A stretch of DNA of 64,000 nucleotides from the IMG/VR virus record IMGVR_UViG_3300036832_000548, positions 1-64,000 of that record; one strand, written 5' to 3'. This DNA comes from a virus. This document shows positions 7,391-32,279 of this stretch, piece by piece. Within the stretch, counting starts at the first letter, position 1. Every line of letters starts with the position of its first letter. The notes under the pieces are model-generated. The model did not search any database, had not been told where the DNA came from, and was given only the letters and a program-made list of their open reading frames with translations. Both the position numbers and the translations under genes were made by a program.

Positions 7391-7417
7391 CTCCGATCTC
7401 CCTTGCAGGAGGCCATT

Positions 7418-11616: not shown

Positions 11617-12970
11617 CGCCCTGCGCGACACGCTCGGCCAGGTCGTCGCTGACTTGCGCCGCCAGTGGCGGCTCGAGCATGAGGTCATGAGTTCGAACGC
11701 CGCGCGCACCATCGCGGAGCTGCGTGTTGATCTCAACAACCAGCGCACTGAGCTCGCCGCGATGTTCGCGGATACGGTTGTCAAGATGCAAGCGCAGTTC
11801 ACCGCGAGACTGGCTGAGCTGCGCGACGGCAAGGATGGTGCAGCTGGGCCGCAAGGCGACATTGGCCCAGCAGGGGCACAAGGCGAAAAGGGTGAGACTG
11901 GGCCGCAAGGCGAAGCAGGACCGCAGGGGCCGCAGGGCGCGGCGGGCGAGCTGGGCGCTGTTGGCGCTGATGGACCAATAGGTCCGCAGGGCGATCCGGG
12001 ATCGCAGGGCGAGCGTGGCGAACCTGGACCGCAGGGCGAGGCTGGAGCGCAAGGCCAACCGGGCAGCGTCGGCGCTGACGGCTTAACTGGGCCACAGGGC
12101 GAGCGCGGCGAAGCTGGCGCAGCGGGACGCGATGGTGACCACGGGCTCAAGGGCGATCCCGGCCCAGTAGGGCTGCAGGGCGAGCTGGGGCCTGTTGGAG
12201 ACGCAGGGCCACCGGGACCCAGCGGCGAACGCGGCGAACAAGGTTTGCCGGGGATCGCGGGCAAGGACGGCGTACCGGGAAAGCACGGCTTACAGGGAAA
12301 TCGCGGCGAGCGAGGACTTCGCGGCGAAACCGGACGGCAGGGCGAGCCAGGATTGCAGGGCGTTCCTGGCACTGCTGGCACTGCTGGCACAGATGGCGCG
12401 CCGGGAGAACGCGGGTCAGCGGGAGAGAAGGGCGAGCGCGGCGAACAGGGTCCGCGCGGCCTGTTGCAGATCGTCAAGACCTACGAGCCTGACGCTGTCC
12501 ACTATCTGGGCGATGTCGTTAGCCACGACGGCAGCACTTGGCAGGCAAAACGCGACACCGGGCAAGCACCGCCGCATCGGGACTGGATCTGCCTCGCTGC
12601 TGCAGCTCGCGCGATGCGTATCCGCGGCACCTACGAGACTGAGGAAACCTATGCCGCGTTCGATGTGGTGATGAAGGAAAGCTCGTCGCACATCGCACTC
12701 AAGAACGATCCCGGCCCATGTCCCGGTCCCGGCTGGCAGCTCCTGGCGGCATCAGGTCGGCGCGGCGTTGCTGGCGAGCGCGGCGCACACGGCGAGCGCG
12801 GGGCGAAAGGCGAGCGCGGTGATCCCGGCGAGGCTGGATCGATGATCGTCGGTTGGAAAATCGATCGCGAGAACTACACGATCACGCCTGTCGTATCTAA
12901 CGGTCAATACACCGTTCCGCCGCTCAACATGGGCGAACTATTCGAGCAATTCCACACCGAAACCAAATGA
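11567..12970 (+). CDS. Collagen-like virion protein with carbohydrate-binding-like segments
   Basis: 467 residues. Residues 1-87 are helical and probably coiled coil. From about 88 to 299 there is an almost unbroken run of Gly-X-Y triplets (about 70), able to form a collagen-type triple helix. Then come two related segments of about 40 residues (YEPDAVHYLGDVVSHDGSTW and YETEETYAAFDVVM..., each with a trailing W), resembling short chitin/carbohydrate-binding modules, a second short Gly-X-Y block and a beta-like end. The start overlaps portal by 50 bases and the stop overlaps the next ATG (ATGA). Likely a trimeric fibre on the head or neck; a tail role is less natural at this position. Confidence 0.85.
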   Translation: MQQIKSTDSEIESEWPDALRDTLGQVVADLRRQWRLEHEVMSSNAARTIAELRVDLNNQRTELAAMFADTVVKMQAQFTARLAELRDGKDGAAGPQGDIGPAGAQGEKGETGPQGEAGPQGPQGAAGELGAVGADGPIGPQGDPGSQGERGEPGPQGEAGAQGQPGSVGADGLTGPQGERGEAGAAGRDGDHGLKGDPGPVGLQGELGPVGDAGPPGPSGERGEQGLPGIAGKDGVPGKHGLQGNRGERGLRGETGRQGEPGLQGVPGTAGTAGTDGAPGERGSAGEKGERGEQGPRGLLQIVKTYEPDAVHYLGDVVSHDGSTWQAKRDTGQAPPHRDWICLAAAARAMRIRGTYETEETYAAFDVVMKESSSHIALKNDPGPCPGPGWQLLAASGRRGVAGERGAHGERGAKGERGDPGEAGSMIVGWKIDRENYTITPVVSNGQYTVPPLNMGELFEQFHTETK

Positions 12971-17729: not shown

Positions 17730-18092
17730 GTGGCCCAGCGCATCGCAGGAACCGCGTTCTGCAAAGTCGATGGAAATATGCTGCCGCTGCGCGGGAACTT
17801 TACGGTCTCGCCCAGCTCGCTCGAGCGGACGTTTTTGGCCGGCCAGGATTATGTGCATGGCTACCAAGAACTGCCGCGCGTTCCGTGGATCGAAGGCGAC
17901 ATCAGCTCAACACCTGACATTTCGATGGAAGGCCTTGAGCAAATGATCGACGTGACCGTGACCGCAGAGCTGGCCAACGGCAAGGTGTATGTGCTGAAGG
18001 AGGCGGCCTGCAAGAGCGCGCTGGAAAACAACACCCGAGAGGGTCAGTTCCGCGTCAAGTTCGAAGGCACGACCTGCGAAGAGATTGGCTAG
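17730..18092 (+). CDS. Tail tube protein (Mu gpM-like)
   Basis: 120 residues, inner tube subunit of the contractile tail. Family pattern: RIAGTAFCKVDGNMLPLRGNF at the N-terminus (given in part), a central GYQELPRVPWIEGDI, then VTVTAELANGKVYVLKEA and a FEGTTCEEI end, all typical of phage tail tube proteins next to Mu-type sheaths. GTG start with AAAGGAGA. Its TAG overlaps the last bases of the antisense cassette. Confidence 0.92.
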   Translation: MAQRIAGTAFCKVDGNMLPLRGNFTVSPSSLERTFLAGQDYVHGYQELPRVPWIEGDISSTPDISMEGLEQMIDVTVTAELANGKVYVLKEAACKSALENNTREGQFRVKFEGTTCEEIG

Positions 18093-18310
18093 TCGCCGCA
18101 GAGTTCTTCGACGGATTGCGCGGTCAGGTTCTCAGCAACCATGACCTCCAACAAGGCACGATCAGCGAATGGCGGCACGTCTTGGCCTGCCACCCAGCGG
18201 CGTATCGTGCGGGGAGCACGGCGCAAAAGCCGCGCCGCGTCCGTCTGGCTGAGTTCCAGTGTTTCGAGCAGCTCGCGCAAGCGTTGGGCTGATTTGGGAC
18301 GGCGAATCAT
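18089..18310 (-). CDS. Small helix-turn-helix DNA-binding protein (cassette regulator candidate)
   Basis: 73 residues. A clear HTH: LELSQTDAARLLRRAPRTIRRW (about residues 17-38), resembling XRE/MerR-like units that bind palindromes. Last gene of the antisense cassette that starts at 21592; ATGA overlap with the gene before it. It is the obvious candidate to bind the overlapping palindromes at the cassette promoter, but this is inference. The ATG at 18308-18310 is preferred over longer frames. Confidence 0.75.
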   Translation of the reverse strand: MIRRPKSAQRLRELLETLELSQTDAARLLRRAPRTIRRWVAGQDVPPFADRALLEVMVAENLTAQSVEELCGD

Positions 18311-18621
18311 GGGCGCGTGACCTCTGCAATTGTCGTCCAGACGATACGCCGCCCTCCCGAAAGTCTGCCTTTGATGTGGCAACGGCCGTTGATCTTGCAG
18401 ACGCTCAATATCCTGTTGATGGCATCGGCTCCGACGAACTTGGCGACAATGTCGGCGTCACACCACGAGTCCGGTCGATCAGCTTTCAAGAGATAGATGT
18501 CATCGTTTGCGTCCTTGGTCAGGACGCCACGACATGATTGGTACGGTCCGTGCGGACCTTGGGCATTGCCCGCGCTGGTGAGCGCGAGCAACGCTGCGGC
18601 GATGAGCAGAAGGCGCTTCAT
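18307..18621 (-). CDS. Small secreted protein
   Basis: 104 residues with a clear Sec signal peptide (MKRLLLIAAALLALTSAGNA, cleavage expected after about residue 20). The mature part has four Cys (SCRGV, WCDAD, VCKI, RCHIKG), suggesting two disulfides in the periplasm. ATGA overlaps with both neighbours in the cassette. Function unknown; a periplasmic exclusion or surface-modifying role is a guess. Confidence 0.65.
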   Translation of the reverse strand: MKRLLLIAAALLALTSAGNAQGPHGPYQSCRGVLTKDANDDIYLLKADRPDSWCDADIVAKFVGADAINRILSVCKINGRCHIKGRLSGGRRIVWTTIAEVTRP

Positions 18622-19031
18622 TGTCGGGGTCCGTTGTTGGTTGAGCTGCCGACAAAGCGGCCCTGATCGTCATAGAACGAGCGCGAGTTGCCAATCCGCA
18701 CGGAGCTGCCCGCGAACGAACCTTGGCGATCATAGAAGCTCCGCGAGTTGCCGCGTTCCACGGACGACCCAGAGAACTGGCCCTGAGCGTCGTAGAACGA
18801 GCGCGTCTGCGCGTGGGCCGCGCCAATGAGGATGCTCATCAGCCAAAGCAGGATCGCCCAGAACACCGCTTTCTTGAAATAGAACCAGACCCAGAAGGCA
18901 TTGGCCTGATGGATCTCGCTGCGGACCTGAGCGAGACGAGCGCGGACGAGTTCCAGTTCCAGCGCCGCCAGTTCATCACGGGGCGGTAGCGGCTGCGGTC
19001 GATGCCGCCCCGGAAATTTGATGAGGGTCAT
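18618..19031 (-). CDS. Membrane-anchored protein with three RSFYD repeats
   Basis: 137 residues. An N-terminal amphipathic helix (residues 18-44) precedes one hydrophobic span (about 54-74, ending AAHAQ, which may also be cleaved). The mature end is three 20-residue repeats RSFYDxQGxFxGSSVxxGNS at 77, 97 and 117. Such repeats occur in rhizobial and phage-associated proteins and look like a small beta-solenoid, probably periplasmic. Part of the ATGA-coupled cassette. Confidence 0.7.
   Translation of the reverse strand: MTLIKFPGRHRPQPLPPRDELAALELELVRARLAQVRSEIHQANAFWVWFYFKKAVFWAILLWLMSILIGAAHAQTRSFYDAQGQFSGSSVERGNSRSFYDRQGSFAGSSVRIGNSRSFYDDQGRFVGSSTNNGPRQ
18642..18803 (-). repeat. Three tandem 60-bp coding repeats
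   Basis: Encode RSFYDxQGxFxGSSVxxGNS three times in the membrane-anchored protein; period 20 residues. The third unit is slightly degenerate at its end. Confidence 0.8.
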
Positions 19032-19186
19032 GATCGCTTCGCCTCCAAAGGAGACACCAGACACAAAACGAGGATGATTATGAGGGCTGACTGCAGCACG
19101 ATAAGTGGCATGTCGATGGGCCAAAGCACAACGAGCATACCGCCGCCCAGCACGCCATAAACGAAGAGGCGGATGAGGGTGCTCAT
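19028..19186 (-). CDS. Small membrane protein
   Basis: 52 residues (MSTLIRLFVY...LEAKRS) with two hydrophobic segments and a basic C-terminus. Start at the ATG at 19184-19186, overlapping the previous stop by ATGA; the longer upstream frame is rejected because it would cover the neighbouring 37-residue gene. Cassette member of unknown role. Confidence 0.55.
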   Translation of the reverse strand: MSTLIRLFVYGVLGGGMLVVLWPIDMPLIVLQSALIIILVLCLVSPLEAKRS

Positions 19187-19296
19187 GTTAGCAATCCCAA
19201 GGTCAAAATACCGAAAATGATGAACAACGATGCGGCGGTTGACCAAAAACTCACCCAGCGGCTAAAGACGATCCTAGTTGCTTTCAACGTGGTCAT
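19183..19296 (-). CDS. 37-residue membrane peptide
   Basis: MTTLKATRIVFSRW followed by a hydrophobic span (FIIFGILTLGLLT). Stop overlaps the next ATG (ATGA) and it starts 3 bases after the preceding gene ends, which supports a real coupled gene. Too short for family assignment. Confidence 0.5.
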   Translation of the reverse strand: MTTLKATRIVFSRWVSFWSTAASLFIIFGILTLGLLT

Positions 19297-19299
19297 GAC

Positions 19300-19593
19300 T
19301 CAGCTTCCCATCGGATATTTGGCGGTGCCATAGATCTCATCGAGGAGTTCCGGGGGGCAGTGGAACGCGCGCTCGACACTGAACGGTTCCGTCATCTGCT
19401 TGCCCTTGTGGTCAGCGAAATGCACTGGGCCACCTTTCCACAGACGGTCCTTGCTGGGATCAAATCCAAACTTGGCCTTGATCTCGCGCACGAACCCTTT
19501 CGGATCGTCGCCCTCGTAGAAGATGATGCGACCCTGTGGGAACAGCTCACGCCACGTTGGCGTGCGCTTGGTCTTGGTCTTACGTTTGGTCAT
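19300..19593 (-). CDS. Cassette hypothetical, 97 residues
   Basis: Soluble basic protein (TKRKTKTKRTPTW at the N-terminus, then REIKAKFGFDPSKDRLW and EIYGTAKYPMGS). GAGGAAAGTC before the ATG at 19591-19593. No recognised domain. Confidence 0.6.
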   Translation of the reverse strand: MTKRKTKTKRTPTWRELFPQGRIIFYEGDDPKGFVREIKAKFGFDPSKDRLWKGGPVHFADHKGKQMTEPFSVERAFHCPPELLDEIYGTAKYPMGS

Positions 19594-19604
19594 GACTTTC
19601 CTCC

Positions 19605-19976
19605 TTATTCCTCGATGAACGCGCCGCAATCGATGCAGCGGCCACGACTGTCGCTGCGATGGTGGCAATGCTTCTGGATCTCTTCGATCTGTTCGTTGAC
19701 GAGGGTGAGCACCGCAGACCAATCATCAGTCTGCAATACGGGCAGGCCGTCATCAGCGAACTGGCCATCGCCGTCGAGGCGGTACACAGAAAAGCGGCAA
19801 CCCTCCTGATGCTCGCGATCCGCTGGGTCGAGATAGTCAATCCAGATGCTCAGCGGGCACTCTGCGTGATCGAAATGCGGCATCGTGTCGTTGTGCCAAG
19901 AGTTGTCGAGCCACTCTGCAGGAAGCGCAGGCATGGTGGCGGGATCAAACTTTGGGAACTCTTCGCGATAGCTCAT
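19605..19976 (-). CDS. Cassette hypothetical with C-terminal metal-binding-like motif
   Basis: 123 residues, acidic. The end CHHRSDSRGRCIDCGAF suggests a small zinc-ribbon-like knuckle. The middle has WIDYLDPADREHQEGCRFSVYRL, a pattern that partly recurs in the 161-residue protein at 20155-20640 (GLYRLEGD...LADGTLPNLQ versus SVYRLDGDGQFADDGLPVLQ), so these two cassette genes look related. ATG at 19974-19976 by ATGA overlap with the preceding gene. Confidence 0.6.
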   Translation of the reverse strand: MSYREEFPKFDPATMPALPAEWLDNSWHNDTMPHFDHAECPLSIWIDYLDPADREHQEGCRFSVYRLDGDGQFADDGLPVLQTDDWSAVLTLVNEQIEEIQKHCHHRSDSRGRCIDCGAFIEE

Positions 19977-20158
19977 TTGGACACCTTGAGGTGGAACCAC
20001 TCCACTATGAAATTGCACGGCTGCGAATAGTGGCGCATCTCGCTGGTGATTAAACGAGCCTTAAGCGCGTTGTAAATTTCCTGATCACTGTGGAAGAGCC
20101 GCAGCGCGTGATAGGTCGCCCCGTTAGGACAGCCCTGCAATCGTTCAAGAACGGTCAT
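19973..20158 (-). CDS. Cassette hypothetical, 61 residues
   Basis: MTVLERLQGCPNGATYHALRLF...; the pattern LxGxPxGATxxxL...EIYNAL resembles small winged-helix-like units, but this is weak. ATGA overlaps on both sides. Unknown function. Confidence 0.5.
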   Translation of the reverse strand: MTVLERLQGCPNGATYHALRLFHSDQEIYNALKARLITSEMRHYSQPCNFIVEWFHLKVSK

Positions 20159-20640
20159 TGTCCACCCCATGTCTCGCCAGCGGTGAGCGCGACCTCATAC
20201 GGATCAGGAGCAAGCTTGAACAACCGCTCCATGTCAGCATCGTACTCCGTGACCTGATCTGGGCTGAGAGCGGGCGAATAATCCGCGCCGCGTGTGTCAG
20301 GATGGAAACCAAGGCCAATCCTGACAGCCCACTTGCGGGCGATGCCGTACATCTCGCACCACTCAAGTGCGGCCTGCAGATTGGGGAGCGTGCCGTCAGC
20401 CAGAACGTCGCCCTCAAGACGGTAGAGGCCAACGAGATACGGTTCGTCCAACTTGTCGCCAAGGCCACTACCCTGATCGCAAATCCACAAGTAGCCATCT
20501 GGGACGATCTGCTCCCAACACAGGCACCCGCCGCCCGTGTGCGCGACCGTATAGTTGCCAGCAGCAGCAACCGCCTTGCCAACCTCGCTCGCTTGCGCGG
20601 CAGCAGTGGTCGCATCAAGCCAAGTGAAAAAGTTACTCAC
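20155..20640 (-). CDS. Cassette hypothetical, 161 residues
   Basis: Acidic soluble protein with a GTG start at 20640 (VSNFFTWLDAT) preceded by GGAGGATC; longer frames are rejected because they run through the next gene. Contains CLCWEQIVPDGYLWICDQ and a GLYRLEGDVLADGTLPNLQ segment related to the 123-residue cassette protein. Overlaps the upstream gene by 8 bases. Unknown function. Confidence 0.6.
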   Translation of the reverse strand: MSNFFTWLDATTAAAQASEVGKAVAAAGNYTVAHTGGGCLCWEQIVPDGYLWICDQGSGLGDKLDEPYLVGLYRLEGDVLADGTLPNLQAALEWCEMYGIARKWAVRIGLGFHPDTRGADYSPALSPDQVTEYDADMERLFKLAPDPYEVALTAGETWGGQ

Positions 20641-20965
20641 GGGGATCCTCCTGCAGCGCCAATGGTGACTCTGAGTTCCAAGCCTCATCGCTCTCAGCGT
20701 CGTCGCAGCCGGGATCGAGGTGCGTGCCATACGGCGGCAAATAAACCTTGCCCTTCCATTCCTGCTGTAACGCTGCGGTGACTTTTTCGTCGTCCACGCT
20801 CACAAGCATGGCGCACCAAATTTCGTTGAGACCATTTTCAGCGATGGTGCCAACTGTGCCAGCGGGCACGATGCACTCTGGAAAGATGTCGAGCGGCTCC
20901 GCAAAGCGGACGCGCGTCCCTTCCGGGAGTTTCGCGAGTTCAAGCCAAGTCAATTGACGGGTCAT
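20633..20965 (-). CDS. Cassette hypothetical, 110 residues
   Basis: MTRQLTWLELAKLPEGTRVRF... followed by a beta-rich PECIVPAGTVGTIAENG segment, which suggests a small SH3-like barrel, and a very acidic end. Coupled to the preceding gene by ATGA. No firm family. Confidence 0.6.
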   Translation of the reverse strand: MTRQLTWLELAKLPEGTRVRFAEPLDIFPECIVPAGTVGTIAENGLNEIWCAMLVSVDDEKVTAALQQEWKGKVYLPPYGTHLDPGCDDAESDEAWNSESPLALQEDPRE

Positions 20966-21129
20966 GACTTTCTCTTTCGCTGCTTCTGGCCATCGCTGTG
21001 GCCCCAATCGTAAATCGCTTGATCCAAGCCACCGGGAAAATAGTCGCCTTGTTCGCCGTCTTGGAATCCGGTGCGATAGGTTTCGAGTTCCGTTCCGGTC
21101 AGTTCGTAGGCTTTGCGTTTCTTCTTCAT
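20962..21129 (-). CDS. Cassette hypothetical, 55 residues
   Basis: MKKKRKAYELTGTELETYRTGFQDGEQGDY... with a basic end (QKQRKRKS). Contains a DGEQGDYFPGGLDQAIYDWG turn-rich segment. No family recognised. Confidence 0.5.
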   Translation of the reverse strand: MKKKRKAYELTGTELETYRTGFQDGEQGDYFPGGLDQAIYDWGHSDGQKQRKRKS

Positions 21130-21133
21130 GATC

Positions 21134-21340
21134 TCAGTCCATGTAGCCGTGGGGATACTGAGTCTTGGCGTGGTCGCGGCACGAATGGCACGGCTCGACG
21201 TGAGCGTTCCAACCTTTTGCAACACGCTTTTCGGTGCCGTCATATTTGGAGCGGTAGACATAGAATTTAGCGGTCTCGCGAACTAGTTCACCGCGTGAGA
21301 TACACGGGCCAACGGGAGAGAAGGTTCTAACGGTAGTCAT
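21134..21340 (-). CDS. Cassette hypothetical, 68 residues
   Basis: MTTVRTFSPVGPCISRGELV... with CHSCRDH near the end, a possible single metal knuckle. Stands 4 bases from the next gene. Unknown function. Confidence 0.5.
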   Translation of the reverse strand: MTTVRTFSPVGPCISRGELVRETAKFYVYRSKYDGTEKRVAKGWNAHVEPCHSCRDHAKTQYPHGYMD

Positions 21341-21394
21341 TTGGTTCCTCGTTTGTTTGATCGGTGGGGAGGGGCCGTAACCCCTCCGGGCTGA

Positions 21395-21592
21395 TCAAGC
21401 GCGGTACCTGTCGATATAGGCAACCGCCTCGTCTACGCTCTTAAATCCGTCCTTACAGTCATACATGCTGTTGAACTTGTTATAGATGCTGTAAGTGCCT
21501 GCGGCTTTAGTCGGATATTTTTCTGACCAGAACTCGATTGAATAGTTGCGGTAAGAGATCCGGCCAAATTCGTCTGTCTGTGCTTTGCTCAT
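21395..21592 (-). CDS. First gene of antisense cassette, 65 residues
   Basis: MSKAQTDEFGRISYRNYSIEFW..., with EAVAYIDRYRA at the end. AGAGAGAAAG directly before the ATG. Its start lies about 17 bases after the predicted transcription start of the cassette promoter. Unknown function. Confidence 0.55.
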   Translation of the reverse strand: MSKAQTDEFGRISYRNYSIEFWSEKYPTKAAGTYSIYNKFNSMYDCKDGFKSVDEAVAYIDRYRA

Positions 21593-21615
21593 TTCTTTCT
21601 CTCTTTGTTGAAATG

Positions 21616-21644
21616 AATATAGGACAATCCGTCCTAGGACGCAA
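21616..21644 (-). promoter_or_regulatory. Promoter of the antisense cassette
   Basis: On the minus strand, -35 TTGCGT (21644-21639) and -10 TATATT (21621-21616) are separated by exactly 17 bases; the first cassette ATG is at 21592. Both elements are close to the sigma-70 consensus. The spacer is occupied by a palindrome. Confidence 0.7.
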
Positions 21645-21652
21645 GGTCCTAG
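21620..21652. promoter_or_regulatory. Two overlapping operator-like palindromes
   Basis: TAGGAC-N5-GTCCTA occurs at 21620-21636 and again at 21635-21651 (extended by C/G to 21634-21652), sharing TA. The first covers the promoter spacer and touches the -10, the second covers the -35. This is a classical repressor layout; the 73-residue HTH protein at the end of the cassette is the likeliest ligand. Confidence 0.7.
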
Positions 21653-21739
21653 TGTGCGGCATCTTGGCTGGAATAACAGCCTGTTTTTCAAGGGGGTAAC
21701 TACGACGGTAACCAGAGGTTGACAAGAGGAACACACACA

Positions 21740-22105
21740 ATGGACGACACGACCAATAAACCCGCCCCGGAAGAGGCCATCGATTTCGAGAGCAGCCCGC
21801 AGCTCGATCAGGAAGCAAACCTTGAGCACACGTTGTCGAAGCCCATCCAAGCGCATGGCGAGGAGTTGCGCATTCTCAGATGGCGCGAGCCAACCGGAGC
21901 TGACATCGAGCGCGCAGGCAATCCCATCGTGATCGATTTCTTTGGCGAGAAGCCCACCCTGACATTCAACGAAAAGAAGATGGGCGCGATGATCTCCGCG
22001 CTCTGTCAGATCCCGCCCTCGAGCGTGCGCCAGCTAACCGCAGCGGACTGGAATTCCATCGCTTGGAAGCTAGTCCGTTTTTTTATGCCGCAGGGGGCGG
22101 CGTAA
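21740..22105 (+). CDS. Tail assembly chaperone, short form (Mu gp41-like)
   Basis: 121 residues. Its place between tube and tape measure and its sequence (HGEELRILRWREPTGADIERAGNP near the start, then MISALCQIPPSSVRQLTAADWNSI) match the Mu gp41/P2 gpE type of tail assembly chaperone, which coats the tape measure before the tube polymerises. GACAAGAGGAA precedes the ATG at 21740; the frame also runs back to a TTG at 21719. A T7 slip site near the end leads to the long form. Confidence 0.85.
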   Translation: MDDTTNKPAPEEAIDFESSPQLDQEANLEHTLSKPIQAHGEELRILRWREPTGADIERAGNPIVIDFFGEKPTLTFNEKKMGAMISALCQIPPSSVRQLTAADWNSIAWKLVRFFMPQGAA

Positions 22106-22284: not shown

Positions 22285-24468
22285 ATGCCTGACCAGACAG
22301 TCGAGATCAAACTAGTATTGCGGGACGAGCTGTCCAAGCAGCTTGCCCCTATTGTTGCGCAGGTCAGGCAGCTCAATCAGGCGATCGATACTACCCGCCC
22401 GCAACAGCACATGGAGCGGTTCGGCGGGGCCGTCCAGGGCGTTCGCCGCGAACTCTCCGCACTATCGCAGATCACTTTCGGCGGGTTGATCGGCGGCGGC
22501 ATTGTCGCTGGCTTAATGGCCACGGCAAAGGCGCTGGGCGACATGGCCAACCGTGGCCTCCAGCTCCGCTACAGTGCCGACGCGCTGGGCGTCACCACCG
22601 GGATGCTCAATCAATTTTCCGACGCCATGATGGGGCTCGGGAAATCGCGTGAGGCAGGTCAAGCAAGCATCGAGGCAGCAACCAAGTCGCTGCGCGAGCT
22701 ACAGATCGAAGGAGGACAGTCAAAGCTTTTCACTGAACTCGAGCGCGCCGGCGGCGAAACCGGCCAACGCCTCGCGCAAGAACTGGCGAAGGAGATCGCT
22801 GGACCGCGCGGCCTGCAGGGCGGTCTTGAGTATGCGATGCGCCGCATGGCGGGGATGCGACAGGAGTCAGCCGCCAAGTTCGCAGAAATTCTGGGGCTGG
22901 GGCCGGGGTTCGGTCGGGAGGCCGCGCGGGATTATCTGCAAGTCCTCGGGCAGCTCCCCAAGCGACTCGAACTTTCGCATCAGCAGCAGCTCGAGCTGGC
23001 AAAGGCCAATGCGAGCCTCGGCATCTCTTGGGACAATATCAAGACTACGCTGGCCGGATCGCTGCTCCCGATCTTCGCGCAGCTCACTCACACGCTCGAT
23101 CAGTTCCTGCAATCCAAGGCCGGTCAGGAATTCACCAAGCAGCTCGAATCATGGGGCCGCGAGATGAATGCCGCGCTCAAGGAGTGGCTTGAGGGCGGCG
23201 GCTTAACGCGACTGACCGAAACGCTCGGGACAGCGGTTGGCACGTTGAGGCAGGGATTTGAGGCCGCTGACAAAGTGGTCACGGCCATGGGAACGGATTG
23301 GGGGCACGTCCTAGGTGCGCTTGGGATCGCGGTGTTCGCCTCACAGTTGGCGGGCATTGCTTCTAGCCTCCGATTGATTGGAGGCATTCCCGGCATCGCC
23401 TTGATACTTGGTAGCCTCGCGCTCATCACAAAGCCAAAGATCGAGGACATCAAAGACCCGGCAAAACGTGCGCAAGCGGAAAAGGACGTAGCGGGCGGCG
23501 CAGCACAACCCGGCGACCCGTGGGCACTTTGGAATATTCTCAAGGATCTGTTGAAAGGCAACATCGATTGGAAATCGATGTTGCGCGAAGATCCGCTCCT
23601 TCCCTTTCCGGGCAGTGGGCAATCCAAGACTCCATCAGAGAAGCGCGCCGACGACGCAGCAAAAAAGAACGCGCAACAGCGCATCACCGAAGAGTTCAGA
23701 GATCTCGATTACGAACTCCAGAAGCTCAATCAATACCTCGCGCCGGGTGGACCAGAAGGCAGCGCAGGATCAAGCGGTTTCCAACTGCCTCCGTATCAGC
23801 AAAAAGATTTCACGTTCTATTATCCCGGTGCCAGCGGTGCGAAGGGAATGGAAGGACCGTTTGAAACCGCGCGAGCGGGATTGGACAAGCAATTCACTCC
23901 TAAAACACTTGATGATTTTCGGTTGGGGCTCACGCCCGCTGTTACGGTTGCTGGACCTGCGAGCAAATTGGGACAGTCGATCAACTTAGGCGATATCGAA
24001 TATCGCAGCCCGATTGATGGCAAAGTCTATCAGGTCCCTAATGTGCCGGGTTATGTGCATGATCGCGGCGGGGCATTCACAGAAGATAAACCAAACAAAC
24101 GCGACATCGCCGTTGGCGATTTTCGTGGCCTCAATCCTGTCACCGGCTTGCCATTCAATGACGCTACCGCAGAAGCGTTCAGCCGCGGGAACAAGCAATT
24201 TGCCGCCGGCACATTTCCAACAGCGTCAGGCTACGATGAAGCGGGCTTTACCGGCGAAGGCGTTGTCGGCACCGATCCGATCACGTCGCATCTCGCCACG
24301 CGCGATTCTCAATCCGTCAATGGCACCGCTACCGTCGACATAGACGTTGGCGGCATGACGCAAGCGATGCGAAATCCGAATGACCTGTTCAAGCCGCAAC
24401 CACTCGGCGGTTCAGTGCAAATGCAAAACGTGACGCGCCCAGACAACAATCCTATGAGTTTCCAGTAA
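22285..24468 (+). CDS. Tape measure protein paralogue 1
   Basis: 727 residues. N-terminal VEIKLVLRDELSKQLAP relates it to the next two genes (VEVVVRDEVTRALER, VEILVRDEATVALER). Long helical region with hydrophobic spans near 65-90 and 350-395 (FGGLIGGGIVAGLMATAKAL; GIPGIALILGSLALI), as usual for tape measures. The shared block SWDNIKTTLAGSLLPIFAQL...TLDQFLQ is present in all three paralogues. Its C-terminal 250 residues carry no recognised enzyme domain and it lacks the GFSPG end. Follows the frameshifted chaperone by 3 bases. Confidence 0.88.
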   Translation: MPDQTVEIKLVLRDELSKQLAPIVAQVRQLNQAIDTTRPQQHMERFGGAVQGVRRELSALSQITFGGLIGGGIVAGLMATAKALGDMANRGLQLRYSADALGVTTGMLNQFSDAMMGLGKSREAGQASIEAATKSLRELQIEGGQSKLFTELERAGGETGQRLAQELAKEIAGPRGLQGGLEYAMRRMAGMRQESAAKFAEILGLGPGFGREAARDYLQVLGQLPKRLELSHQQQLELAKANASLGISWDNIKTTLAGSLLPIFAQLTHTLDQFLQSKAGQEFTKQLESWGREMNAALKEWLEGGGLTRLTETLGTAVGTLRQGFEAADKVVTAMGTDWGHVLGALGIAVFASQLAGIASSLRLIGGIPGIALILGSLALITKPKIEDIKDPAKRAQAEKDVAGGAAQPGDPWALWNILKDLLKGNIDWKSMLREDPLLPFPGSGQSKTPSEKRADDAAKKNAQQRITEEFRDLDYELQKLNQYLAPGGPEGSAGSSGFQLPPYQQKDFTFYYPGASGAKGMEGPFETARAGLDKQFTPKTLDDFRLGLTPAVTVAGPASKLGQSINLGDIEYRSPIDGKVYQVPNVPGYVHDRGGAFTEDKPNKRDIAVGDFRGLNPVTGLPFNDATAEAFSRGNKQFAAGTFPTASGYDEAGFTGEGVVGTDPITSHLATRDSQSVNGTATVDIDVGGMTQAMRNPNDLFKPQPLGGSVQMQNVTRPDNNPMSFQ

Positions 24469-27366
24469 ATGGTAGCTCGCAAACCACAAACCATCGAGGT
24501 CGTCGTTCGCGACGAGGTGACGCGCGCTCTTGAGCGTGCGCGCTCGCATATGCGCCAAGTCGGTGGCGGCAAGGAAACACTGGGCGGCATAACGGGCGCG
24601 ATCAAGGGACTCGAGGGTGGCATCGAGTCAGTCGCACGCGGCATCAGCCGCGAGTTTGGCACGCTGGCCCGCATGGCGGGCGGCAGCTTGCTGGGTGCTG
24701 GTTTTGTCGCTGGCCTCAACAGGACGGCGCAGGCGCTGGGCAATGTGGCGCGGGCCGCAACGCAGCAGCACTATCTCGCTGAACAAATCGGGCTGACGAC
24801 GCAGCAGCTCGCAAATCTCACGGCTCGCGGTCGCGCGTTCGGCTTGGGTGTTGAGCAGACCACGGCTGGCATTTCGAGTCTCTCCAAAAATCTGCGCGAT
24901 CTGAAGATGCTCGGTCAGAACGCGCCCATTTATAAGTCACTCACGGAAGCGGGCGGCGGTAGTGGTCAGCGGTTTGGCGACAAGCTCATAGCAGCGGTCA
25001 GGGGACCTGGCGGCTACGACGCTGGCGTCCATACGTTTATCAAACTGATGTCGGAGACGAACGCTCAGGCGCAGAGCAAGCTCTCTGATATGTTTAATCT
25101 AGGTTCGATTGCGTTCCGCGATCTCGATTCTCTTGGTCTGGGCGATCTTCCAAAGCCGATTGTATTGTCTGATTCGGCAGCGCGCGATCTCACGCGCTCG
25201 ACGGCGCTTGCAGATCAGTCGTGGACAAATATCAAAAACACTGTCGGCGGCGCGTTGATGCCGGCGGTCGAACAGTTGGCGCGAACGCTTGACGCATTCC
25301 TGCAAGGACCTGGCGCAGGAATGCTCAAACAGTTTACAGACTGGGTTTCCAAGATCAACATCCCATGGGGAGCAATCGGCACCGCGCTGGCGAGTGCAGC
25401 CGGAATATTAAGCATGGCCTTCATCTGGGTGAAGAAGGCAATCGTGGAGGTCACTCCGATAGTCGATAAAATCGGCGGCTGGGGACCGCTTCTGCTCACG
25501 GCGGGTGCCGTGATCCAATACGGCAACGTCAACAAGGTCACGCTGAGCTTGTATGTCATCGGCGGTGCGTTGACCGTCATTGGCGAGCACGACTGGGTAC
25601 TCAAAGCACTCGCTGACGCCAGCAGATTGGCAATGGGGACGGGCAAACTGTCATCGCAGTTTGGATCGCCCTATTCGAGGAACATCGAGGACCGTCGCGG
25701 GCAGCCGTCCATACAGATGCCGCCGAATGCCAAGGCCATGCGCGGCGGCTACAACCTCATGAGCAGCACCACTGGCTCGAGCGACGACGATGACGATATC
25801 ACCAATGCGTTGAGTAATCAGCTGCAAAGCACCAGCGCGCAAGTCATGCAGCTGGCCAATATCGTGGCAACGCAGGGACTGACTCCCGATCAGCTCGGCG
25901 GCGGGACTGCAGGAGGAGGACAGATCCGCATTCCCAGCGCTGGTGGCGGCGGTGGCGGGTACACGCCGCGCCCGCGAGCTGCACCGCCGCCTTCGACACC
26001 ACGGACAACAACGCCACCGTCGACGCCACCGTCGACGCCGCCAGCACCGCCTCCATCGACGCCGCCAGTAACACCACCAACGCCATCTTCAACACCGTCG
26101 AGGCCATCCTCGACAACGCCTCCAGGGCCGACACCGGGACCAACACAGCCGCCGCCCGGAGGTACTAATAAGGGCGTGTTGCTGTTCGCGCACGGCCTTA
26201 CCGGACGCTATGCGGGGATGCACGGCAGCATCGCGCAAGTCGAAGCAGACGTTAAGCGATACGCGGCAGCGCACGGCTATAGCAGCGTTGAGTTCATTTA
26301 CGGCTCGCCCGCCGAACAAGAACGGCAAATGCTGGATCGGGTTAAGCGCGGAGGCGTCGGCGGCCTTTTGGGCTTTTCGGCTGGCGCTGGTCCTGCGCGA
26401 CGGGTCAGCAATGCGACCGGTGTGCCGGCGGTTACGACCGGAGCACCAAGAGTTCCAGGCGACGTGAGCCCCGCGAAACGTCACATGGACCAAATCCGCG
26501 TGCTGGCGGAACAGGAAGAAAGGAAACGACTACAACAAAATCCGACCGCGCAGCCACAAGTGCCAACCGCGAACCCGCAACAGCCGACCACCGGGCGGTC
26601 GGGATTGGTTTCGCCGGTCACCGGATCATTCGGTGAGAATTCGTCCAACCCATACGGCGCTGCTCGCAAGGGTGGGCGACCGCACTCCGGCGTCGATTGG
26701 CGCGCGGAGAATGGGACGCCAGCGGTTGCGATGATTGGCGGTGTCGTTACGCACGTCGGCTACGATAGAGGCGGTTACGACAACTATGCGGTGGTGAAGG
26801 GTGACGACGGCGTCTATCGTCGATATGCCTATCACGGGCGATCGCTTGTCCACAAAGGACAGCGGGTCGAGCAAAAGCAACCGCTTGGCATCATTGATCG
26901 GCGCCATCTGCATTACGAAGAAATCCACCCGAAATTGGCGAATGGCAAACCGAATCCGGTGTATGCGGAATTTGAGCGGAATGGCAACGCCAGCACCAGC
27001 TATCAACGCGGCACGTCCGATCCGTCGCAGACGCTCAATATGCCATATCGGACCAGGGTCACCGCAGGCGAACCGCTTGGCGGCCAACCTGCAACGGCAC
27101 AGCCTGCGCAAACGTCGCCAATCGTCTATTCGAACGAGGACGAGATCGAGCGGCTCAAATATAAAAAAGAATTGGACGAACAATATCCGCAGGGCGGCTA
27201 TACGCCGATTCCAAAAGGTCGCATCAGCGGCCTTGTCAATCTCCAGATCAATGTGCGCGGGCCGCGCGGCGTGAAAGTATCTGGCGAAGGTGCCGGGGTC
27301 GTAGGGCCTGCGAGCATCGACCGATCCGATCCCAGCGGCGGCATCGAAGGCTTCTCACCGGCATAA
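24469..27366 (+). CDS. Tape measure protein paralogue 2 with M23 peptidase domain
   Basis: 965 residues. Residues 1-400 align with the other two paralogues (VVVRDEVTRALERAR, the SWTNIKNTVGGALMPAVEQL block). A Gly-rich then Pro/Ser/Thr-rich linker spans about 490-560. Residues 568-660 look like an alpha/beta-hydrolase fragment (LLFAHGLTG; nucleophile elbow GFSAG near 635). Residues 715-840 are an M23 (LytM) endopeptidase with HSGVDW (about 738) and HLHYEE (about 812), which cleaves peptidoglycan cross-links. The C-terminus is DPSGGIEGFSPA. The tail tip would thus deliver a wall hydrolase with the tape measure. ATG overlaps the previous TAA by 1 base. Confidence 0.9.
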   Translation: MVARKPQTIEVVVRDEVTRALERARSHMRQVGGGKETLGGITGAIKGLEGGIESVARGISREFGTLARMAGGSLLGAGFVAGLNRTAQALGNVARAATQQHYLAEQIGLTTQQLANLTARGRAFGLGVEQTTAGISSLSKNLRDLKMLGQNAPIYKSLTEAGGGSGQRFGDKLIAAVRGPGGYDAGVHTFIKLMSETNAQAQSKLSDMFNLGSIAFRDLDSLGLGDLPKPIVLSDSAARDLTRSTALADQSWTNIKNTVGGALMPAVEQLARTLDAFLQGPGAGMLKQFTDWVSKINIPWGAIGTALASAAGILSMAFIWVKKAIVEVTPIVDKIGGWGPLLLTAGAVIQYGNVNKVTLSLYVIGGALTVIGEHDWVLKALADASRLAMGTGKLSSQFGSPYSRNIEDRRGQPSIQMPPNAKAMRGGYNLMSSTTGSSDDDDDITNALSNQLQSTSAQVMQLANIVATQGLTPDQLGGGTAGGGQIRIPSAGGGGGGYTPRPRAAPPPSTPRTTTPPSTPPSTPPAPPPSTPPVTPPTPSSTPSRPSSTTPPGPTPGPTQPPPGGTNKGVLLFAHGLTGRYAGMHGSIAQVEADVKRYAAAHGYSSVEFIYGSPAEQERQMLDRVKRGGVGGLLGFSAGAGPARRVSNATGVPAVTTGAPRVPGDVSPAKRHMDQIRVLAEQEERKRLQQNPTAQPQVPTANPQQPTTGRSGLVSPVTGSFGENSSNPYGAARKGGRPHSGVDWRAENGTPAVAMIGGVVTHVGYDRGGYDNYAVVKGDDGVYRRYAYHGRSLVHKGQRVEQKQPLGIIDRRHLHYEEIHPKLANGKPNPVYAEFERNGNASTSYQRGTSDPSQTLNMPYRTRVTAGEPLGGQPATAQPAQTSPIVYSNEDEIERLKYKKELDEQYPQGGYTPIPKGRISGLVNLQINVRGPRGVKVSGEGAGVVGPASIDRSDPSGGIEGFSPA

Positions 27367-27369
27367 AAA

Positions 27370-29883
27370 ATGGCTCAAGGCACCAGATCACCCACCGTCG
27401 AGATCCTCGTCAGGGATGAGGCTACGGTTGCGCTCGAGCGCGAGCGCGCACGCATCCGAGCGGCTGCGGCCAATCATGAGCTATTTACTGGACTCGAGTC
27501 AGCCTTCAAAGGATTCGAAGGCGCAATCCAGTCGCTGGCGCGGACGGTCAATCGTGAATTTAGAACGATATTGGGACTAACCGGCGCGGGCGGCTTTCTC
27601 GGAGCTGGCCTTGTCCTCGCCATCGACAAGACGGCACAAGCCGTCAGCGGCCTCGCGCGTTCCGCTGAGGAGAACAGATATCTAGCCGACACGCTTGGCG
27701 TGACCACCGCGCAGCTCAACAACTTGGTTGCGCGCGGTCAGGCGCTCGGCATGAGCACGGAGCAAAGCAGATCAGGCATCGAGAGCCTGCTCCGCGCGAT
27801 GCGCGATCTAAGACTGATGGGGCAGGATGCGCCGGTCTATAAGGCGCTGGTGGAGGCTGGCGGGGCGAGCGGCCAACGTGTTGGTGATCAGCTCATCGCT
27901 ATGGTGAAGGGACCGGGCGGCTACGAGGCAGGCATCCGTCAATTTGCCAAACTGCAATCGGGGATGAACCTCGATGCCCAGCGTAAATTGTCGGAAATTT
28001 TCGGCACAAGTTCACTTGCATTCCGCGATCTCTATACCGTCAAGAATATCCCTTCGATTATCGATCTTGCTGGTCCACAGGCGCGCCGTCTCAGCATCGC
28101 GATGGCGAGTCTGAATGTCTCGTTCGATAATTTGAAGACCACGCTTGCTGGCGCGGTGATGCCAGCGTTCGAAGGATTATCGCAAACACTCGACAAGTTC
28201 TTGCAGGGTCCTGGCAAGAAGATCGTTCAGCAATTCGCGGATTGGCTGTCAACGCTCAATATCCCGTGGGACAGAATCGCCAAAGGCTTGGTGGGCGCGG
28301 TCGAGGCGCTGCGAGACATTTTTGCATGGGGCAAGAAAACCGCAGAGGATCTCGAGCCGATCATCGGGAAACCCAAATTGTGGGGACCCGTATTGAAAAA
28401 GATGGCTGATCTGGTCATTCCCGGATTCGTCAATCATCTGCTGACTTTTGCCAAGGCATTGATGGCCGTTGGCCAGCATGCGGATGTGATCGCGAAGATA
28501 ACCGCAGCCGTCCGCGGCGGCGAAGCTCCCGCGCCGCCAACTGCGAAGCCATCAGCATCACCGTTGCTGCCCATGCCGACGCCGCAACAACTGCGTGGCA
28601 CTGGCCGCACGCAAGGCCAGAGTCCGTCAGCGCCGCGAGCGATGGGCCTGCTATCGACTGGTGGTGGTTATACTCCCGGTGGAGGCGAGGACCCGCAAGA
28701 TACCGATCAACTGAGCGAACAGGTACACGCGACATCGCGGCAAGTGTTGCAGCTCGCGAACTACATATCTTCGCAGGCTCTCACCACGGACGTGAGCGGT
28801 GCGGGCGGATTGGCTGGGCTGGCTGGACAAATCCGCACGGGCAGAGTTGGCCGCGCTGGCACAACAATCGGCGGCGGTGGTGGAGGCACGCGCGGCGGTG
28901 GTGGTGGCCGACGCGGCGGTGGTGGAGACAGTGGCATCCCTGACACCGGGACAAACGCAACCGGCACCACGAAAGGCGTCACGTCAGAAGGCATGGCACT
29001 GCTTGACACCATCGCGACTTGGGAAGCGGAGCCAGCTTTCAAAAACGGTCAGCGCGCTGGCTGGAATACAATGATTGGCAACGTCCGCTTCGATCCGAAT
29101 ACGGACGAGCACCCTAAAAGAGCCTATCCGTGGCTGCGCGGTTATGTTGGGGGGGCTGGTGTTTCCTATGCGTCTGGTCGCTATCAGGAAACGATCAACA
29201 CCTATTATGAGAACGTCGCGCGCAGCAAGCGATTGCACCCCGGCATGAAGGTTTCGGGCTGGTCGCCAGAGGCCCAGAACATTCGCAACTGGGACAAGGC
29301 ACAAGATATTTACGCGCGCCGTTATAGAAATCTCGGCATTCCAAGTCTGACCGGCAACTTGCAAAAAGATTTGGAAGCCAACAAAAACAACCCAGCAATG
29401 ATTGGAAGGATGGCGCGGGCACTTAGTGGTGAATGGACGACGGCCCCTGGTGGACACGAACGCTCAAAACAAACGGGCAAGAGCGAGAGCCAATATTCAA
29501 CGCAATATCTAAAAATGCTCGCGAGGACATCGCAAGATCCCGCGCTGGCCAATCAAAGCGATCCTGCCTCGCCGTCCTCATCGTCAGCATCGTCATCGCC
29601 AACAGCGCCGACATCGCCGCCTGCGCCAACGTCACCAATTGTCTGGTCGAACCTGGACGAGATCGCGCGTCTTGAGCGGGAAGCACGGGAGGCGGCAAGC
29701 CTACCAGCTGGCGGGTTCACCCCAATTCCGCGGCAAGGCGGCTCGAGCAGGATCAATCTGAACGTCAACGTGCGCGGGCGCAGTGCAAGGGTGTCGTCGG
29801 AAAGCAGCGGCGACATGGGATCGGCAACGATCAGCCGGGACAAAGACCCAAGCGGCGGCATCGAAGGCTTCTCACCGGGATAA
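27370..29883 (+). CDS. Tape measure protein paralogue 3 with lambda-R-like transglycosylase domain
   Basis: 837 residues, separated from paralogue 2 by 3 bases. Residues 1-390 match the paralogues (VEILVRDEATVALERER; SFDNLKTTLAGAVMPAFEGL). After a Gly-rich linker (about 470-525), residues 540-705 resemble lambda R-type lytic transglycosylases: LLDTIATWEAE with the likely catalytic Glu, EHPKRAYPWLRG, the diagnostic SASGRYQ-like YASGRYQETI (about 600), SPEAQN and ALSGEW. The C-terminus is DPSGGIEGFSPG. The combination implies a second, different wall-degrading activity in the tail. Confidence 0.9.
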   Translation: MAQGTRSPTVEILVRDEATVALERERARIRAAAANHELFTGLESAFKGFEGAIQSLARTVNREFRTILGLTGAGGFLGAGLVLAIDKTAQAVSGLARSAEENRYLADTLGVTTAQLNNLVARGQALGMSTEQSRSGIESLLRAMRDLRLMGQDAPVYKALVEAGGASGQRVGDQLIAMVKGPGGYEAGIRQFAKLQSGMNLDAQRKLSEIFGTSSLAFRDLYTVKNIPSIIDLAGPQARRLSIAMASLNVSFDNLKTTLAGAVMPAFEGLSQTLDKFLQGPGKKIVQQFADWLSTLNIPWDRIAKGLVGAVEALRDIFAWGKKTAEDLEPIIGKPKLWGPVLKKMADLVIPGFVNHLLTFAKALMAVGQHADVIAKITAAVRGGEAPAPPTAKPSASPLLPMPTPQQLRGTGRTQGQSPSAPRAMGLLSTGGGYTPGGGEDPQDTDQLSEQVHATSRQVLQLANYISSQALTTDVSGAGGLAGLAGQIRTGRVGRAGTTIGGGGGGTRGGGGGRRGGGGDSGIPDTGTNATGTTKGVTSEGMALLDTIATWEAEPAFKNGQRAGWNTMIGNVRFDPNTDEHPKRAYPWLRGYVGGAGVSYASGRYQETINTYYENVARSKRLHPGMKVSGWSPEAQNIRNWDKAQDIYARRYRNLGIPSLTGNLQKDLEANKNNPAMIGRMARALSGEWTTAPGGHERSKQTGKSESQYSTQYLKMLARTSQDPALANQSDPASPSSSSASSSPTAPTSPPAPTSPIVWSNLDEIARLEREAREAASLPAGGFTPIPRQGGSSRINLNVNVRGRSARVSSESSGDMGSATISRDKDPSGGIEGFSPG

Positions 29884-29900: not shown

Positions 29901-30455
29901 TTGGCTTCCATACGTGATAATCATAACGTCTGGCGCGACAATCTGGTGCCCGCCTCGTTTCGCGGCGCGGTCTTTCATGTGGAGACGAGCGCGCGATCGA
30001 GCGGACGCAGGACAGTCGTCCATGAGTATCCGAAACGGAATAACCCCTATGCCGAGGACATGGGCCGCAGCGCGATCCGCTGGCAGATCACGGGCTATTT
30101 GATCCTGCGCGACAAGGGCATTCGTGGCAACCTGCTCAGCCAGATTGGAGACATGATCAACGCGCTCGAGGCGGACGGCCCTGGCGTTTTGATTCATCCG
30201 ACGCTGGGCGAGATGCTGGTCCAGTGCGAGAGATATTCGTACAGCGACAAGCGCACGGCCGGCGGTTACATCGAGTGGGATATGCAGTTCGTGGAGGCGG
30301 GATCTGGGATATTGACTGCAGTGATCAATACTGCAGCCATGCTGGTCATGACCTCGACCGCAGCTGAGACAAGCGCAGCGACGGCAATCAAAAGCGATAC
30401 AGCTCCGCTGCAGAGCACGATCAAACCTCAACCCAGCCAAACCGTAGCGGCATGA
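29901..30455 (+). CDS. Mu gpN-like baseplate protein, N-terminal part (DNA circularisation family)
   Basis: 184 residues matching the N-terminus of Mu gpN/gp43 relatives: WRDNLVPASFRGAVFHVE, then GRRTVVHEYPKRNNPYAEDMGR and a GPGVLIHPTLGEMLVQCERYS strand. The family name is historical; gpN is a baseplate/tail protein. In Mu this is a single protein of about 490 residues; here it stops at 184 and the rest is a separate gene overlapping by ATGA. TTG start at 29901. Confidence 0.85.
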   Translation: MASIRDNHNVWRDNLVPASFRGAVFHVETSARSSGRRTVVHEYPKRNNPYAEDMGRSAIRWQITGYLILRDKGIRGNLLSQIGDMINALEADGPGVLIHPTLGEMLVQCERYSYSDKRTAGGYIEWDMQFVEAGSGILTAVINTAAMLVMTSTAAETSAATAIKSDTAPLQSTIKPQPSQTVAA

Positions 30456-31123
30456 GCACGCCATCTGAACTAGCTGAAATCAACGGCATCGTTAGTCGGA
30501 TAACTGCGAATTTGATGCGGTTTAACGGCATGCGCGGTCAGACCGGTTCTGCGTTGCGTCAAGCCTGCGGCGATCTTAATGCACGCACCAGCACCTATGT
30601 GGTTGATGGAACATTCGCCAATCGCTTGTTGAACTGCTTTCTCCTCGCAACCGTGGCCGGCATTAGTCTTGATTGGATGGACCAGGTCGTTGCTGGACTT
30701 ATTGCTGAACAGCCGACCACTCTGATGTCGACCAGTGTCGTACAGAATGCGTTGATCATGGCTATCGCGCAGGAAGGGCGGATCATTGCAGCGACAGTCT
30801 ATGTCAGTCGCGATGATGTCGATGCGACCATGCAACGGATGAATAATTGGTTCGAAACCATCAAGGACATCATCGCGGATACCATGAGCGGTCCAGGCTA
30901 CGAGGCATTCATCACGCTTACGGGATCGATCACCCGGCATCTGACAGACAGCGCGCGACCGTTGCCGCGGATACTACGCTATCAGATGCCCATGGTGATG
31001 CCGGGGTTGTTGGCCAGCCAATACATCTACGGCGACGGGAGCCGGGATGAAGAACTGGCGGCAGAAAACAAGGTCGTCCATCCCCTGTTCATGCCACTGG
31101 CATTGCGGGCCTTGAGCGCGTGA
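30452..31123 (+). CDS. Mu gpN-like baseplate protein, C-terminal part
   Basis: 223 residues. It ends in LRYQMPMVMPGLLASQYIYGDGSRDEELAAENKVVHPLFMPLAL (given here as family comparison in parts: LPxxxxxY, YGDxSRxxEL, HPxFMP), the classic C-terminal signature of the gpN/DNA circularisation family. A helical domain occupies the first 150 residues. The ATGA junction with the previous gene suggests a natural fission of gpN into two co-translated polypeptides rather than a decayed gene. Confidence 0.75.
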   Translation: MSTPSELAEINGIVSRITANLMRFNGMRGQTGSALRQACGDLNARTSTYVVDGTFANRLLNCFLLATVAGISLDWMDQVVAGLIAEQPTTLMSTSVVQNALIMAIAQEGRIIAATVYVSRDDVDATMQRMNNWFETIKDIIADTMSGPGYEAFITLTGSITRHLTDSARPLPRILRYQMPMVMPGLLASQYIYGDGSRDEELAAENKVVHPLFMPLALRALSA

Positions 31124-31130
31124 GGCAATC

Positions 31131-32279
31131 GTGCCGTTCAGAGCTTCAGAAATCGCAGTCATTACTGTCGGTGGCATGGATTTCAAGGATTGGGAAAATG
31201 TCACGGTCAAGATGGTGGAAGGAGAATCGAACCACAGTTTCAAGCTGTCGGTGTCGGAAGGAGCCCCGCTGACCAAAGATTTTGGGAGTCTGAAGATCAA
31301 GCCAGGGGATCATTGTACGATCACGCTGGGCGGTGAGCTGGCCATTTCTGGATACGTCGAGACGCGGCAAGTCGGCTACAACGCAACACAGCATGGCATT
31401 CAGATCATTGGGCACAGCTACAATAAGGCGGCGGCTGATGGCTCCGTCATGCACAAGACGATGGAGTTCAAGAACCAATCGCTGCAACAAATCGGGACGC
31501 AACTCCTGAAACCGTTCGGCATCCAGTTTGTCCCTAAGACGGCAATGCCTACCAAGCAATTTCCACGGGTGAACGTGGCGCCAGGTATGAGTGCGTGGCA
31601 TCAACTCGATATCCTTGCGCGCCAGCGGCAGGTGACCCTAGGGACTGACAAGCAAGGCAACGTGACAGGACGGACGTTTTTTCAGGGCGGCGGCGATGCG
31701 CTGGTCGAGGGCGTAAATATTCTTGATGGTCAAGAGGTCATGACCATGAACATGGGCGACGGGCCGCTCAATGAGAAAAGTCAGACACCCGGCAGCAATT
31801 TCAATTTTGGGCGCGAGGCCGCAGGCCCAACGTCAAAAACCGATAGCCGACCACTGGGTGAGTCTGGGAAGGGCGTATATGCGCCGCAGGTTGGATTGAC
31901 TGAGCATCACGGCGACAAGGACGACACCAAGGCGCGCGGCAATATGGAACAACAACGCCGCGGCCAAGAGCAGTTGCAAGTGACCATAGTGGTGCAGGGG
32001 TGGATGAGACCGTCAGGCGGCCTTTGGGAGCCGGGGACGAAGGTCATGGTGCAATCGCCCATGCTGTTGGTTAGTGAATCGCTCAAGCTCATGTCAGCGA
32101 CATTTACGCAAGACAACAAGTCAGGGACGCGCACGACGCTGGAGCTCACGCGCGAAACCGGCAGCGAACAGGACGCCAAGGACGGGAAGGCACCTTACAA
32201 CATGGATCCGAAAACCCCTGGCGGCGTGGACGATCCAAGCGATCCGTCCGGGGGCCGACCGGGATTCTCGCCGGGATAA
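31131..32279 (+). CDS. Baseplate hub protein (Mu gpP-like)
   Basis: 382 residues, related to Mu gp44/P2 gpD, the gp27-like hub below the tube. It has ITVGGMDFKDWENVTVK near the N-terminus, the GELAISGYVETRQVGY strand pair, ATQHGIQIIGHSYNKAAADG and VNVAPGMSAWHQLDILARQRQ, all typical. The C-terminus is unusual: DPSDPSGGRPGFSPG repeats the terminal tag of tape measures 2 and 3. GTG start at 31131. Confidence 0.85.
   Translation: MPFRASEIAVITVGGMDFKDWENVTVKMVEGESNHSFKLSVSEGAPLTKDFGSLKIKPGDHCTITLGGELAISGYVETRQVGYNATQHGIQIIGHSYNKAAADGSVMHKTMEFKNQSLQQIGTQLLKPFGIQFVPKTAMPTKQFPRVNVAPGMSAWHQLDILARQRQVTLGTDKQGNVTGRTFFQGGGDALVEGVNILDGQEVMTMNMGDGPLNEKSQTPGSNFNFGREAAGPTSKTDSRPLGESGKGVYAPQVGLTEHHGDKDDTKARGNMEQQRRGQEQLQVTIVVQGWMRPSGGLWEPGTKVMVQSPMLLVSESLKLMSATFTQDNKSGTRTTLELTRETGSEQDAKDGKAPYNMDPKTPGGVDDPSDPSGGRPGFSPG

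Follow-up and report, generated by a model that had tools for sequence, protein, structure and literature searches.

Three tandem tape-measure paralogues with different putative wall-cutting domains in a contractile-tailed soil phage

The DNA analysed here (the window) is a stretch of 64,000 nucleotides from an IMG/VR virus record of 82.6 kb (IMGVR_UViG_3300036832_000548, positions 1 to 64,000) and belongs to a soil phage. Its genes specify a head of HK97 type (TerL, portal and S78 protease-capsid) and an SfV/Mu-type contractile tail (sheath, Tail_tube, TAC_7 chaperone, DNA_circ/gp43, gp44 and gp45), together with a baseplate J protein. On the plus strand, the contractile tail sheath (15816–17651; Pfam Phage_sheath_1/1C, E = 3e-13/3e-14; PHROG 165, E = 6e-140) is followed by the tail tube (17730–18092; Pfam Tail_tube, E = 2e-33) and by a tape-measure assembly chaperone of the E/41/14 type (21719–22105; Pfam Phage_TAC_7, E = 1e-11). 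Three adjacent, intact reading frames, designated TMP1, TMP2 and TMP3 for tape-measure protein (TMP), lie between this chaperone and a DNA_circ_N gene that corresponds to the N-terminal half of gp43 (29901–30455, plus strand; Pfam E = 1e-24). The C-terminal half of gp43 is a separate plus-strand gene (30452–31123; PHROG 184 positions 278–401), so that this DNA circulation/hub protein is encoded by two overlapping genes (29901–31123); in several relatives gp43 lies downstream of gp44/gp45. Next comes a gp44-like baseplate hub (31131–32279, plus strand; Pfam/PHROG). A separate plus-strand gene for an Amidase_3 protein (52319–53602; Pfam E = 4e-20) probably supplies the endolysin, and any enzymes on the TMPs therefore need not act in lysis. 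A phage integrase gene (62534–63727) suggests that the phage is temperate.

Several other features of the window were recorded. Minus-strand ORFs, none with a Pfam match, form a block (18307–21856) that interrupts the tail operon between the tube and chaperone genes; two relatives (L010 and L008) have a gap of other sizes at the same site, and a third (L007) has none. In L008, an insertion of about 250 bp additionally interrupts the tail tube gene (7948–8564) after codon 22. Positions 8005–8216 within this insertion resemble a group I intron, scoring 47.8 bits (E = 6e-11) where the gathering score of the model is 50, and HNH-like ORFs flank the insertion on both sides. In the window, a minus-strand HNH_3 and AP2 homing-endonuclease-like gene (6896–7888) directly precedes the protease-capsid gene. 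A PEP-CTERM sorting motif occurs on a phage-encoded protein (58344–59051; Pfam E = 8e-7), and two proteins carry collagen repeats (11567–12970, Pfam E = 1e-40; 42095–43495, Pfam E = 2.5e-10).

The three central genes, all on the plus strand, encode proteins of 727 (TMP1, 22285–24468), 965 (TMP2, 24469–27366) and 837 residues (TMP3, 27370–29883). Their junctions are tight, namely TAAATG between TMP1 and TMP2 and a 3-nt gap between TMP2 and TMP3. The initial annotation had read them as tandem tape-measure paralogues, and their paralogy is indeed far above chance, since BLAST within the record aligned TMP3 with TMP2 at E = 5e-109 and with TMP1 at E = 1e-39. TMP2 and TMP3 are 43–45% identical over ~470 residues and TMP1 is ~31% identical to both (31% over 373 residues with TMP2). 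TMP1 matches PHROG 2276 (tape measure) at E = 4e-11; the PHROG tape-measure matches of its paralogues TMP2 and TMP3 are weaker (1e-3 and 9e-5). The genes also have the location of TMPs, with TAC_7 upstream (21719) and DNA_circ_N (29901) and gp44 (31131) downstream. The block S[WF][DT]N[IL]K[TN]T described earlier was found in all three proteins, whereas the N-terminal VRDE occurs in TMP2 and TMP3 only; TMP1 has LRDE, leaving RDE common to all. A single TMP split or frameshifted into three was ruled out, because every gene has a full N-terminal tape.

The tapes of TMP2 (residues 1–470) and TMP3 (residues 1–472) are nearly equal in length, residues 8–474 of the former aligning with 9–474 of the latter, and as judged from the sequence the final helix ahead of the linker stops near residues 486, 470 and 471 in TMP1, TMP2 and TMP3, respectively. 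An AF2 model of the tape contained helix only and zero strands, at low confidence (mean pLDDT 51). Hydrophobic segments lie near residues 342–382 (TMP1), 303–372 (TMP2) and 349–367 (TMP3).

Beyond the tape, the paralogues differ in their predicted enzymes. TMP1 had been described as ending in nothing recognised, and no recognisable enzyme was detected there. A C-terminal DRGG sequence noticed by eye was considered as a 3D/MltA-like enzyme and rejected, as there was no library match and the L007 orthologue has no such motif, so that no conserved catalytic site is present. In TMP2, a Pro-rich linker and a possible α/β hydrolase-like stretch precede a Peptidase_M23 domain (residues 738–817 of 965; 26680–26919, plus strand), which is assigned by Pfam (E = 2.4e-14; 53.7 bits against a cut-off of 28.7) and by sequence relatives in the PDB. 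All of its Zn ligands are kept (H739, D743 and HxH at 813–815, within PHSGVDW at 738 and HLHYE at 813). The stretch before it (26161–26463, plus strand) contains HGLTG and GFSAG (residue 635) and is nearly identical in the window and L010, being more conserved between them than the tape. It gave no Pfam, NCBIfam or PDB match of note and is possibly a reduced α/β hydrolase, a putative third virion enzyme.

In TMP3, a Gly-rich linker leads to a putative lytic transglycosylase domain of the lambda-R-like (GH104) type (about residues 542–720 of 837; 28993–29529, plus strand). The likeness is weak but above chance. The domain had zero Pfam/NCBIfam matches and no significant BLAST match to lambda R itself. 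With tblastn the domain matched, at E = 0.01, a protein annotated as GH104, which forms a bridge to the lambda-R family, and hhalign against a seven-member lambda-R profile gave a score of 29.7, compared with 22.7 for the best of 40 shuffles, at a probability of only 30%. The candidate catalytic Glu552 and SGRYQ (602) are collinear with the SEG and GAGRYQ motifs of lambda R. A single-sequence AF2 model of the domain had a pLDDT of 36 and was set aside. The enzyme activities of all these domains are predictions from sequence, above all that of TMP3 and that of the E-module of the relatives described below, and the window would pair a glycan cutter with a peptide cutter as far as the GH104 assignment is accepted.

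The initial annotation had placed a hydrolase at the end of both TMP2 and TMP3. The M23 assignment is solid and the lambda-R-like one weak, but neither domain is terminal: both proteins continue into a shared C-terminal tail (27094–27363 in TMP2 and 29611–29880 in TMP3, plus strand; 54% identity over ~90 residues), and the hydrolases are thus internal. Both tails end in DPSGGIEGFSP[A/G]. The general form, DPSGG-x-x-GFSP-x, is also the C-terminus of the gp44-like hub (DPSGGRPGFSPG), which places it at 27328–27363, 29845–29880 and 32241–32276, and it is absent from all other fetched loci. The gp44 copy is written in different codons, suggesting selection on the peptide, and the ending is perhaps a docking or sorting tag. 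The tails also bear on the arrangement of the tapes. If the paralogues were stacked end to end, their lengths would sum to a long tail, three serial tapes giving in principle a longer ruler. However, every copy has its own C-terminal tail, type-specific in phages with two TMPs, which fits side-by-side anchoring, and we regard stacking as very improbable.

Soil relatives were gathered by a sheath scan and a TMP scan of viral contigs. Loci complete from the chaperone to gp44/gp43 were classed, and removal of near-copies left 23 distinct viral loci. Ten of these have one TMP, 12 have two, and the window alone has three. Different enzyme modules sit on different paralogues in all 14 tandem arrays (13 viral and one in a prophage of Bradyrhizobium sp. 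SRL28), and this is a solid result. Among the two-TMP arrays, 11 of 12 have a CHAP-like module on one paralogue and an E-module on the other, in either order, and the twelfth has two H/C modules, paired with SLT-like and Amidase_2 modules. The two TMPs of the SRL28 prophage (L133) lie in tandem and are 41% identical over 575 residues; one has an SLT-like module and the other an M15-like motif. Seven of the ten single-TMP loci have two different modules on their one TMP; the other three have one module only, so that two enzymes are not obligatory.

The search for three-gene arrays proposed with the initial annotation thus gave a divided answer: two-TMP arrays recur and parts of the gene order are found in close relatives, but the TMP1 scan of viral contigs returned no second complete triplet. 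L010 has orthologues of TMP1 (72% identical) and TMP2 (67–71%), after which its contig stops; in L007, TMP1 (53%) is followed by the beginning of the next paralogue (46%); and L008/L132 have a TMP1 orthologue (53% in L008). Close relatives of TMP3 or its enzyme domain were not found in the viral scans beyond L007, L008/L132 and L010. Outside viral contigs, a profile scan of genome contigs with the TMP alignment gave zero matches, and the sheath alignment found 32 loci there, the nearest in Bradyrhizobium prophages. A search of 272 genomes from the same genus as Bradyrhizobium SRL28 gave only weak matches to window-type TMPs, and none of the TMPs compared with 50,697 phage records had a match over its tape domain.

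The module labels of the relatives differ in standing. CHAP in L018 is supported by Pfam (E = 5.5e-7) and by TIGR02594 (E = 1e-15, under its cut-off), and Amidase_2 by Pfam (E = 2e-12); the SLT and M15/VanY modules score under thresholds. The E-module has an invariant Glu and no match to Pfam, NCBIfam, PHROG or PDB families or to SLT, lambda-R and M15 profiles; the name 'SleB-like' (SleBb) is a motif-based label. Because it matches no known family, its glycan-cleaving role is treated as conjecture, and so is the split into a glycan and a peptide cutter in the CHAP/E-module arrays. The H/C module has an invariant His and Cys and no family match, and its label, YkuD-like, again comes from motifs.

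With enzymes of some kind on both copies in the two-TMP relatives, no pure tape exists in those phages. This argues against the reading in which TMP1 alone sets tail length and TMP2 and TMP3 are lumen cargo, that is, pilot enzymes whose tape-like N-terminus acts as a loading tag, as do the near-equal tape lengths of TMP2 and TMP3. That reading draws on the lack of an enzyme in TMP1, the first gene after the chaperone, and on the closer mutual relationship of TMP2 and TMP3 than of either to TMP1. We consider it unlikely, and favour instead, with somewhat better than an even chance, that matched paralogous tapes assemble together inside one tail lumen, with complementary muralytic cargo divided among them.

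The relatives also bear on how many kinds of tape a virion would contain. Each virion might hold a homo-oligomer of one paralogue, and the particles of a burst would then differ in the enzymes that they carry, a form of bet-hedging. In the TMP structures known so far the protein is a homotrimer (JBD30; PMC11445458), and interchangeable tapes are expected from independent duplications. Nevertheless, L013, L084, L134 and L140 carry both module types on one polypeptide, which argues that a single tail has use for both. L013 joins the very CHAP-like and E-module types that the 11 two-gene arrays split, and the Bradyrhizobium prophages L134 and L140 have this pair on a single TMP. Particles built of TMP1 alone would, moreover, be without enzyme. 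Bet-hedging is a less probable reading still than a tape of TMP1 alone.

Tapes and enzyme modules have followed different histories. In the two groups of two-TMP phages, tapes from the same genome are 58–64% and 50–61% identical, whereas tapes with the same enzyme type are only 26–34% identical between group I and group II. Between the groups, CHAP-like modules show 65% identity, and the group II CHAP modules nest within those of group I. The tape tree groups sequences by lineage, with the six rows of the window clade forming one clade (100/99), and forcing the CHAP-type tapes into a single clade was rejected (AU p = 8e-6). L031 and L097 have tapes that are 91% identical and E-modules of different subtype. 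Matched tapes within genomes and similar CHAP modules across groups thus imply that cassettes are passed from tail to tail while each tape remains matched to its partner. The matching may come from independent duplications or from concerted evolution; either suits a single tube, and neither proves simultaneous presence. The likeness of tapes within a genome could also stem from independent tandem duplications without any co-assembly, and the tape lengths of group I pairs differ by 13–43 residues, which speaks against exact matching.

Each TMP copy is under purifying selection, with dN/dS of 0.08–0.32 for all paralogues tested. Decay of the other copies in relatives had been named as an outcome that would tell against a functional array; no decay was seen, the frames being intact and dN/dS ~0.22. 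Tandem duplication is common in phages, and the arrays might be neutral duplications whose redundant copies are being lost, or an assembly artefact. Both are strongly disfavoured: the copies are intact and under selection, an isolate genome has an array, as do 13 distinct viral loci sampled in many metagenomes, and the paralogues have diverged too far for assembly error.

Taken further, the co-assembly of matched tapes would amount to a true hetero-oligomeric tape in which structural, peptide-cutting and glycan-cutting roles are divided, in the window perhaps with a single copy of each of the three proteins. Such tapes would have originated several times among contractile-tailed phages of soil and rhizobia and would exchange cassettes while remaining matched. 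This fuller proposal is tentative and falls a little short of an even chance. In the favoured reading, TMP1–3 would be co-translated, and the shared chaperone would load a mixed bundle into the growing tail tube; co-assembly in one virion and the stoichiometry of the bundle are what we infer from the genes. The N-terminal helical segments (~470–487 residues up to the linker) would serve as matched tapes, TMP1 as a purely structural copy, and the C-terminal tails as anchors of the bundle at the hub. The M23 endopeptidase of TMP2 and the lambda-R-type lytic transglycosylase of TMP3 would each be held between a flexible linker and the C-terminal tail. Upon contraction, the bundle would be ejected together, C-terminus leading, and the enzymes would cut peptide bonds (TMP2) and glycan bonds (TMP3) of the wall. 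The hydrophobic segments may then insert in the inner membrane, as has been proposed for other TMPs (PMC11445458). Relatives would reach the same outcome with two enzymes on a long single TMP or with one or two on each tandem TMP.

TMPs with muralytic domains are familiar from TM4, T5 pb2, P1 Sit and phiCbK gp95 (PMC1796659, PMC9024508, PMC3556154), which likewise combine a helical tape with a wall-hydrolase domain delivered by the tail. Those phages have a single TMP gene each, whereas the window has three paralogues among which the enzymes are divided. In SP-beta, CwlP/YomI carries two enzymes, a lysozyme and an endopeptidase, on one virion protein (PMC5380687), and here too glycan- and peptide-cleaving domains would pass through one tail. 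In CwlP both domains share a polypeptide, a state matched by relatives with one long TMP (e.g. L013 and L018), while in the window they lie on separate tandem paralogues. The TMP of JBD30 is a homotrimer (PMC11445458) that, as in T5 and 80alpha, fills the tail lumen and has its C-terminus anchored in the baseplate core. Such structures fit the rule of one tape measure per tail assumed at the outset. JBD30 uses three copies of one gene product; the window encodes three different ones. With SfV/Mu-type modules the window shares Tail_tube, TAC_7, DNA_circ/gp43, gp44 and gp45, and its sheath is 35–41% identical to theirs, but those modules have one TMP and the window has three, with gp43 split in two genes and an HK97-type head. 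A full-text search of the open-access literature for tandem, split or duplicated TMP genes turned up no description of tandem TMP paralogues.

The comparison of these loci reveals a modular rule, in which the tape is resident and the muralytic cassette exchangeable. It also makes natural one-gene and two-gene forms of the same enzyme pair available to compare, and a tandem TMP array is present in a sequenced Bradyrhizobium isolate. If the tape is indeed made of two or three paralogues, its copy number, packing and order of ejection could be tested directly with one paralogue at a time labelled or deleted.
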